60,312 bases of DNA from assembly GCA_020832925.1 (NCBI GenBank), contig JAJHRF010000006.1, positions 1 through 60,312 of the forward strand. The letters are read 5' to 3'. The notes beneath the pieces were generated by a model. The model did no database searches, was not told where the DNA came from, and saw nothing but the letters and a program-made list of their open reading frames with translations. The position numbers and the translations under genes are program-made. The DNA is from Desulfurococcaceae archaeon (lineage in GTDB: Archaea; Thermoproteota; Thermoprotei_A; Sulfolobales; Ignisphaeraceae). This document shows positions 37,324 to 38,412 of the stretch, in pieces (the stretch's first letter is position 1; every line of letters starts with the position of its first letter).

Positions 37324-38412
37324 CTAATTCATTGCTTGCTGTATCTGGGGTTTATCCTTAGAGCTCTTCCATGCTTTAGGATAGACACCAGGATCCATTA
37401 TAACTCTATTGATCTCTACGGCAATACCTTTCTCAGCTTTTAAGATCTCTTCACTAGACATAAGAGCTCTACCTACAGCAACGAGCTCTCCTTTCAAAGT
37501 CATTACAGCTACTGTATCATCCTTATTAATGTTCTTCGACAATATCGCGATGCCTGGTACAGCTAGTTGAGCTCCGTGAGCTATAGCGTCTACAGCTGTA
37601 TCCCTTACTAATACCTTTGGTAGATGAGCTGCTATGTACTCCATGGGCACGATATATTTCCTTAAGAGTGTATCATCTTTATACCTATTCCATATGTAGA
37701 GAGCCTCCGATAGGTTCTGCATTGTAACGAGGTTTAGATCTTCTGTTAAATGGGCTACAGCTGTTCTCCTTAACTCTCTCATATGAGCTCCAACACCTAG
37801 TAGTAGACCTATATCGTGACACAGTTTCCTAATATATGTGCCAGATTCGCATCTTACTTTGAAAAGCACATGTCTACCCTCAATCTCCAGTACATCTAAC
37901 GAATATATTTCTCTAACTCTTAAAGTTCTTTTGACTGAAGATCTTAGAGGAGGTCTTTGATAGATCTTGCCGATGAAGAGCTTCATAGTTTCTATAACTT
38001 TGTTTGAATCAACATTGTCATGCAATTCCATGAGAGCTACGTACTCTTTATAAGAATGCATAAGTATTCCTATAACCCTAGTTGCCTTATCTAAGGCTAT
38101 AGGGAGCACCCCCGTAACTTTGGGGTTTCCCCGCCTAGCCCTTTACATAGGGCTAGGCTCTAGGGTCCCCCCATGCCCTGCTTTCTCTAATCCAAACATC
38201 TTCTTTACCCACGCAACTACTTCATGACTAGTTGGTCCTGGGGGTTTATCTAAGACTATGAGACCACTTCGTATGTATAGCTCTGTTGGTCGTTCATATG
38301 GTAGGTATCCATACTTTTCGTTGGTATCTTCATCGATTTTCACGACATATTCCTGATTTAAACCTGCAATTCTATCTAAAGTCCTGATAAACTCTAAGCC
38401 CTTCTCCTTCAT
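37324..38412 (-). CDS. cbf5: rRNA/tRNA pseudouridine synthase Cbf5, gene split by an archaeal intron
   Basis: Catalytic subunit of H/ACA RNPs and tRNA Psi55 synthase. Coding is join of 38412..38160 and 38126..37324 (minus strand), 351 residues. Exon 1 has PPGPTSHEVVAWVKKMFGLEKAGHGGTL-type N-terminal sequence (PGPTSHEVVAWV, GHGGTL); exon 2 continues PKVTGVLPIALDKATRV, KTYG-like SYKEYVALMELH, and a C-terminal PUA domain ending MDPGVYPKAW. Joining at the proposed sites restores GHGGTLDPKVTGVLP, with the catalytic Asp (about residue 85) encoded across the splice junction (G|AC). Unspliced, translation would stop at TAA in the intron, giving a 92-codon fragment. The start ATG 38412 has GGTG six bases ahead; GTG 38421 is possible. 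Confidence 0.93.
38127..38159 (-). other. Archaeal pre-mRNA intron in cbf5 (bulge-helix-bulge)
   Basis: 33-nt intron on the minus strand. It folds as a perfect 10-bp hairpin GCCTAGCCCT-ATGTAA-AGGGCTAGGC. Exon 1 CCCT pairs with intron GGGG to form the 4-bp central helix, flanked by 3-nt bulges AGA (cut AG|A) and AAA (cut AA|A), with exon GGGG/CCCC outside. Cutting at these positions and ligating gives exactly the conserved protein sequence. Only irregularity: one unpaired A beside the outer helix. The substrate would be the tRNA splicing endonuclease and RtcB. Cbf5 is the known intron-bearing protein gene of crenarchaea. Confidence 0.9.

Follow-up and report, generated by a model that had tools for sequence, protein, structure and literature searches.

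Introns that split the catalytic Asp codon of archaeal cbf5 genes follow a rule of reading frame: in all 38 distinct junctions at which the intron length is a multiple of three (3n), a stop codon within the intron closes the frame of exon 1. This stop rule and the range of the intron, which extends into the Asgard phylum and into 35 families outside the order of the window (the whole 60,312-nucleotide stretch of DNA analyzed), both go beyond what we found in print. The intron of the window is one more member of the known cbf5 family, and neither its size nor its position is notable; it adds one genome, and the pattern across the family weighs more.

In the window, cbf5 is found on the minus strand as two reading pieces around a 33-nt insert with an in-frame TAA (Table 1). 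Exon 2 contains the remainder of the Pfam domain TruB_N, followed by TruB_C_2 and PUA; joining the exons restores GTLDPKVTG and gives a Cbf5 of 351 residues containing GHGGTLDPKVTG, whereas reading the unspliced gene gives a peptide of 89 residues. The preliminary description, made from the letters alone, had placed the intron and its splice points correctly to the base, and the perfect 10-bp hairpin, the in-frame TAA and the division of the Asp codon into a G in exon 1 and AC in exon 2 that it reported are all present in the sequence. Upstream of cbf5 is a gene for a KOW-motif protein with a weak match to L14e, downstream is a methyltransferase and further on PCNA. The nearest named relative among the matches listed is a metagenome-assembled genome labelled Ignisphaera aggregans SZUA-1435 (72% identity over exon 2), and the nearest row in a 153-row tree belongs to the same genus as the window (75% identical).

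Table 1. Features of the cbf5 gene and its intron in the window (↓, predicted cut).
Feature	Position	Strand	Remark
cbf5 exon 1	38160..38412	-	ATG 38412-38410; ends with GHGGTL + G (first base of Asp codon)
cbf5 exon 2	37324..38126	-	AC of Asp codon to stop codon 37326-37324
cbf5 intron, 33 nt	38127..38159	-	nucleotide position identical to published cbf5 introns
TAA in frame of exon 1	38143..38145	-	within hairpin loop
Central helix, exon-1 side CCCT	38162..38165	-	then bulge A38161 G38160 ↓ A38159
Central helix, intron side GGGG	38129..38132	-	then bulge A38128 A38127 ↓ A38126
Inner hairpin	38133..38158	-	10-bp stem + 6-nt loop

The genome is a draft of 1.88 Mb in 101 contigs, 99% complete. 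Given such a draft and an in-frame stop, the insert might be read as the mark of a pseudogene, a frameshift or an assembly error, an explanation that we find hardly credible: a profile search for TruB_N gave a single match genome-wide, at this locus and with one TAA inside, so that the gene is the sole cbf5 of a nearly complete genome; both of its exons are conserved; the intron was found in 11 of 11 genomes examined from the genus of the window (31-39 nt, with differing sequences), those other than the window's own having it at the identical nucleotide in 10 cases of 10; and the helix between exon and intron covaries. Profile searches also identified one match each in this genome for the splicing endonuclease EndA (PF01974) and the ligase RtcB; a second EndA subunit was not found with the PF01974 profile.

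The intron reads A-GCCTAGCCCT-ATGTAA-AGGGCTAGGC-GGGG-AA, in which GCCTAGCCCT and AGGGCTAGGC form an inner stem of 10 perfect base pairs and the loop ATGTAA includes the TAA. To this are added a central helix between exon and intron (CCCU/GGGG) and the bulges AG↓A and AA↓A, each with its cut border between the second and third residues, while the outer helix between the exons is imperfect, having an A opposite a C and then three G-C pairs; judged from its letters, the motif is a relaxed bulge-helix-bulge (BHB). An 86-nt region around it folds better than shuffled versions (z -3.4; none of 200 equalled it). With 10, 12, 15 or 20 nt from each exon, the BHB comes out as the best fold; with 8, 24 or 30 nt per exon the minimum-energy fold retains the inner stem and loses the central helix, and in the 24- and 30-nt folds exon 1 pairs with downstream exon 2. 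Since the BHB is best at 10-20 nt of exon and another fold at 24 nt or more, early cutting may be favoured. The loop (38143-38148, minus strand) consists of a start codon and, immediately after it, the stop, both in the frame of exon 1, probably by chance.

Introns in cbf5 have been described at the catalytic codon in Desulfurococcales and Sulfolobales, with sizes of 16-44 bp (Yokobori et al., 2009; PMC2738675), following earlier work cited there (Watanabe et al., 2002); that of Stetteria has 33 bp, that of Ignisphaera aggregans 39 bp and that of Sulfolobus acidocaldarius 22 bp, and both splicing and cleavage by EndA are published for related species (PMC2738675). The same paper assigns the intron to the ancestor of the two orders, with losses in Pyrodictiaceae and Ignicoccus. 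A paper from 2020 describes the cbf5 intron, placed in crenarchaeota, as the sole further BHB intron reported for archaea and its function as unknown (PMC7714728). The intron of the window agrees with the published ones in gene, catalytic codon, nucleotide position, bulge cut position and size range, differing from them in sequence only, and four of the published introns likewise keep the frame (PMC2738675). The preliminary description was correct that cbf5 introns are known in crenarchaea, and its prediction of an archaeal BHB intron here is supported by the window sequence and its relatives; its view that the tiny size is notable fails, as one published intron has the same length and those found here have 13-76 nt. 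The BHB introns of archaeal tRNA and rRNA share the motif, and presumably the enzymes EndA and RtcB, with the cbf5 intron; unlike it, they sit in non-coding RNA, where a stop codon is meaningless.

In a word search, “stop codon,” “nonsense,” and “in-frame” have 0 occurrences in PMC2738675. Phrases for the cbf5 intron occur in open PMC text only in that 2009 paper, no paper there combines Asgard, cbf5 and intron, and the accessible text of PMC12397907 makes no mention of cbf5, Thorarchaeota or Lokiarchaeota by word search. No earlier report of the Asgard range or the stop rule was found among the papers listed for open PMC text, the subscription literature lying mostly outside this search.

Pairing between exon and intron is conserved across relatives. 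The central helix of 4 bp is complete in 178 of 185 distinct junctions; it is mostly CCCU/GGGG, and where the exon side varies the intron side varies together with it, giving CACU with AGUG or GGUG in Jordarchaeia and in Sigyn- and Freyarchaeota, CUUU/GAAG in Njordarchaeum and LC30, and CUCU/AGAG in three other Asgard genomes. For 51 aligned junctions, the covariation score was 0.418 against 0.187 in shuffled alignments (0 of 500 shuffles as high) and fell to 0.07-0.16 when the pairing was slid; the 12 named pairs were formed in 90.5% of cells (78.4% shuffled), and 69 cells were doubly changed (17.2 shuffled). The number of pairs changed on both sides, 6, was not above that in shuffles (264 of 500 as high). 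The Leu codon preceding the Asp is YTA in 176 of the 185 intron-bearing junctions, compared to 38 of 126 intronless genes. In many junctions, the window's included, the outer helix is imperfect, making these relaxed BHBs. The weakest motifs belong to two loci from family f9 of the window's order (L133 and L324), in which the intron side is GGTT and 2 of 4 pairs are formed.

The preliminary description had remarked that the intron length is a multiple of three and the stop the sole bar to read-through; sequence and relatives agree, and this proved to be its interesting part. The 185 distinct junctions represent 179 distinct introns, and we counted stops in the upstream frame, that of exon 1 (frame 0). 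Lengths fall into the classes 0, 1 and 2 modulo three with 38, 77 and 70 junctions, the 3n class being rarer than even (p 0.0009, kinship ignored), and this shortage is near to what the removal of stopless 3n introns predicts (44 predicted, 38 seen). Every 3n intron has a stop in frame 0, where nulls preserving stem pairs and loop composition expect 10.6 or 13.9 of 38; in the other frames, 8 and 7 of the 38 have one. Among the non-3n introns, 87 of 147 have a stop in frame 0 (88 when the two final Asp codon bases are counted too), where a null of the same kind expects 30.6; for the other two frames the figures are 34 and 25. The difference between the 3n and non-3n classes gives p 8e-8 in Fisher's test, kinship ignored. 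Relatedness is handled in the p values only through counting one junction per family or lineage: with 19 of these, which we assigned ourselves (treating two Asgard loci and two others whose family is not known as units of their own), the excess of stops has p 1.6e-12 to 3e-10, and p 6e-5 when the null is the 60% rate of the non-3n introns. First stops in 3n introns are TAG (15), TGA (12) and TAA (11). With duplicates counted, 50 of 50 3n loci have the stop. Asgard introns alone, a small sample, have it in 2 of 2 3n introns and in 8 of 14 introns of any length. Part of the loci had been fetched partly because their TruB_N match looked interrupted; among the 72 junctions obtained without choice on that basis, 17 of 17 3n introns have the stop. 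A loop-position artefact was also considered for the stops and is unsupported, the excess being present at each stem length modulo three.

That we are dealing with nothing beyond the known cbf5 intron, its stops arising by chance or from hairpin loops that favour UAA, UAG and UGA, gains some credit from the loop holding the first stop in 28 of the 38 3n introns and from the common ancestry of related introns; we judge it improbable nonetheless, as the excess is confined to one frame in both length classes, recurs whatever the stem length modulo three, and survives one-per-family counting, also with the 60% rate of the non-3n introns as the null. A similar pattern is known from the short introns of ciliates, in which 3n lengths are underrepresented and rich in in-frame stops, a feature explained by nonsense-mediated decay (PMC5014332). 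The cbf5 introns resemble these in both respects, 3n lengths being rare and the 3n class having in-frame stops. Ciliate introns are spliceosomal, whereas those of cbf5 are BHB introns with covariation between exon and intron; they behave like ciliate-type introns and are not such introns. We know of no nonsense-mediated decay in archaea. If the intron goes back to a common ancestor of the window's phylum and Asgard and its stops have policed unspliced messages throughout, cbf5 would offer a spliceosome-free equivalent, in prokaryotes and with Asgard included, of the eukaryotic intron nonsense rule; the rule in cbf5 separates the nonsense rule from spliceosome and nucleus.

For the window, we consider it probable that this is an archaeal cbf5 BHB intron spliced by EndA and RtcB, its stop retained by selection as a fail-safe. 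The transcript would fold into the relaxed BHB, EndA would cut each bulge between its second and third base, and RtcB would ligate the exons, restoring the Asp codon GAC and an active Cbf5 and leaving the 33-nt intron as waste. In archaea, ribosomes can have access to messages ahead of splicing, and an unspliced 3n intron lacking a stop would then yield a full-length enzyme in which the catalytic Asp is lost and, in the present case, 11 extra residues are placed in the active site; such a faulty Cbf5 might still bind its partners, with presumable harm to the cell. Selection may therefore maintain an upstream-frame stop within the intron, such that unspliced copies give only a short dead peptide (here the 89 residues noted above) and ribosomes arriving before splicing would halt in the hairpin loop. 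The frame-specific stop rule is then a testable statement of what selection demands: translation that precedes splicing should go no further than the intron. Avoidance of a full-length faulty enzyme cannot be the whole reason, because non-3n introns, which shift the frame anyway, are also rich in stops in the upstream frame; early termination is favoured generally, and the narrow fail-safe idea does not explain the non-3n excess. That excess would also be accounted for if the intron were a regulator, the efficiency of splicing setting the amount of Cbf5 and the stop making the unspliced state a clean off switch. A role as negative regulator has already been proposed for the cbf5 intron by Watanabe and Yokobori (PMC2738675), and it is compatible with the fail-safe; we nevertheless regard regulation as rather unlikely, given that many close relatives lack the intron, families f6 and f7 of the window's order among them.

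The distribution of the intron was followed at first in a set of junctions from 60 genomes (the window's own included), 80 genome-contig loci and pieces fetched by place. Within the window's order, intronless cbf5 genes are found in the two families just named and in two cases in f4. An insertion point identical to the window's, directly behind the Asp codon's G, is used in loci labelled Jordarchaeum, Jordarchaeia, Sigynarchaeota, Freyarchaeota, Njordarchaeum and Asgard LC30, and also in loci labelled Bathyarchaeota, Culexarchaeum, Nezhaarchaeota and Thermofilaceae. Four loci gave no usable cbf5 junction (L037, L119, L129, L147), all except L119 being cut at a contig end and having contigs of equal length; two others (L139, L140) are EndA and RtcB and not cbf5, a 500-base piece (L247) was left out, and one intronless locus (L102), grouped with euryarchaeota in our analysis, is from a genome that belongs to the Asgard set. 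A covariance model (R1), blind to frame, was built from 51 chosen junctions; its matches span 51 nt in intronless genes and are longer by the intron length in intron-bearing ones. In large sets, R1 was run with stricter filters, under which weak matches can be lost: in the window's phylum it matches 284 of 398 sampled genomes at E 1e-3. The intron is present in at least 150 of the 398, the 150 listed matches, all inspected in sequence, being full-length with spans of 65-127 nt (introns of 14-76 nt). Among these 150, 87 are outside the window's order, in the 35 families mentioned (family codes as read).

In the Asgard phylum, R1 has matches at E 1e-5 in 63 of 227 genomes. Spans are 68-92 nt in 16 of these, with scores of at least 60 bits; the other 47 have the 51-nt span and score no more than 46.5 bits. 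Two of the 16 (L190 in genome G120 and L192 in G150) are second, intron-bearing cbf5 copies in Asgard bins, on contigs of 4.0 and 5.6 kb, and fall among genes of the window's phylum in the 153-row tree (support 83 and 99); we suspect contamination or transfer and did not count them as Asgard, keeping them among the 185 junctions. This leaves 14 of 227 Asgard genomes with the intron, all 14 with a match to EndA and 12 of them with two. Misbinning is unlikely for four of the loci because their contigs are long: 1.11 Mb (L183), 443 kb (L186), 125 kb (L094) and 101 kb (L189). In the phylum of a genome titled Methanocellales (euryarchaeal), R1 matches 16 of 196 genomes at E 1e-5; every match has the 51-nt span and no intron was seen, and in 8 further genomes, one of them Asgard, the 7 matches all span 51. 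Five Asgard cbf5 genes (L154, L155, L193, L198 and L199, in G116, G088, G169, G115 and G119) occupy open frames of 836-867 codons and look like fusions with another domain.

The state of the intron changes 18 times on the 153-row tree (quick method) and 12 times on a tree of 74 rows, for which sixteen locus ids were barred beforehand (chiefly branches that were long or odd, together with the two suspect Asgard copies), rows were limited per group and four Asgard rows were added by hand. On this quick tree, holding the 40 intron-bearing rows as one clade, a group defined after the 153-row tree was seen, is rejected (p-AU 0.00027), and with it a single transfer of an intron-bearing gene lineage as source of the range. 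Genes of Sigyn- and Freyarchaeota group with two intronless Asgard genes (SH-aLRT 94) and those of L184, L186 and L189 with one (SH-aLRT 95), while the pairs from Jordarchaeia and Njordarchaeum are unplaced in the 74-row tree; since Asgard intron genes group with intronless Asgard genes and one clade is rejected, one transfer does not explain the range. Presence in several Asgard lineages would make the archaeal mRNA intron older or else reveal a strong insertion site. It is close to an even matter, in our view, that the intron came from the common ancestor of the window's phylum and Asgard and has been kept or lost since, with translation policing unspliced messages through the intron stop, mostly in the loop. 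Repeated insertion at one favourable site, in place of a single event in an old ancestor, is a serious possibility that falls somewhat short of this; it is likewise conceivable, if less than probable, that what favours the site is the conserved GG...CC of the motif, which can form the outer helix. The 12-18 changes on the trees, the rejected clade and the dissimilarity of the inner intron sequences would fit such repeated gain; yet the nucleotide and the bulge layout are identical everywhere, losses are known (PMC2738675), and a history of one gain followed by many losses would lead just as readily to the rejection of one clade.

Some introns fall outside the published sizes. Two have 13 nt (L048 and L049, the latter equal to L122 of genome G057, family f4) and one 14 nt (L393), below the published minimum of 16; those of 13 nt have hardly any inner stem, their motif being one helix closed by a short loop. 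Three others, of 76, 67 and 57 nt (L245, L368 and L327), exceed the published maximum of 44, and their central helices are complete.
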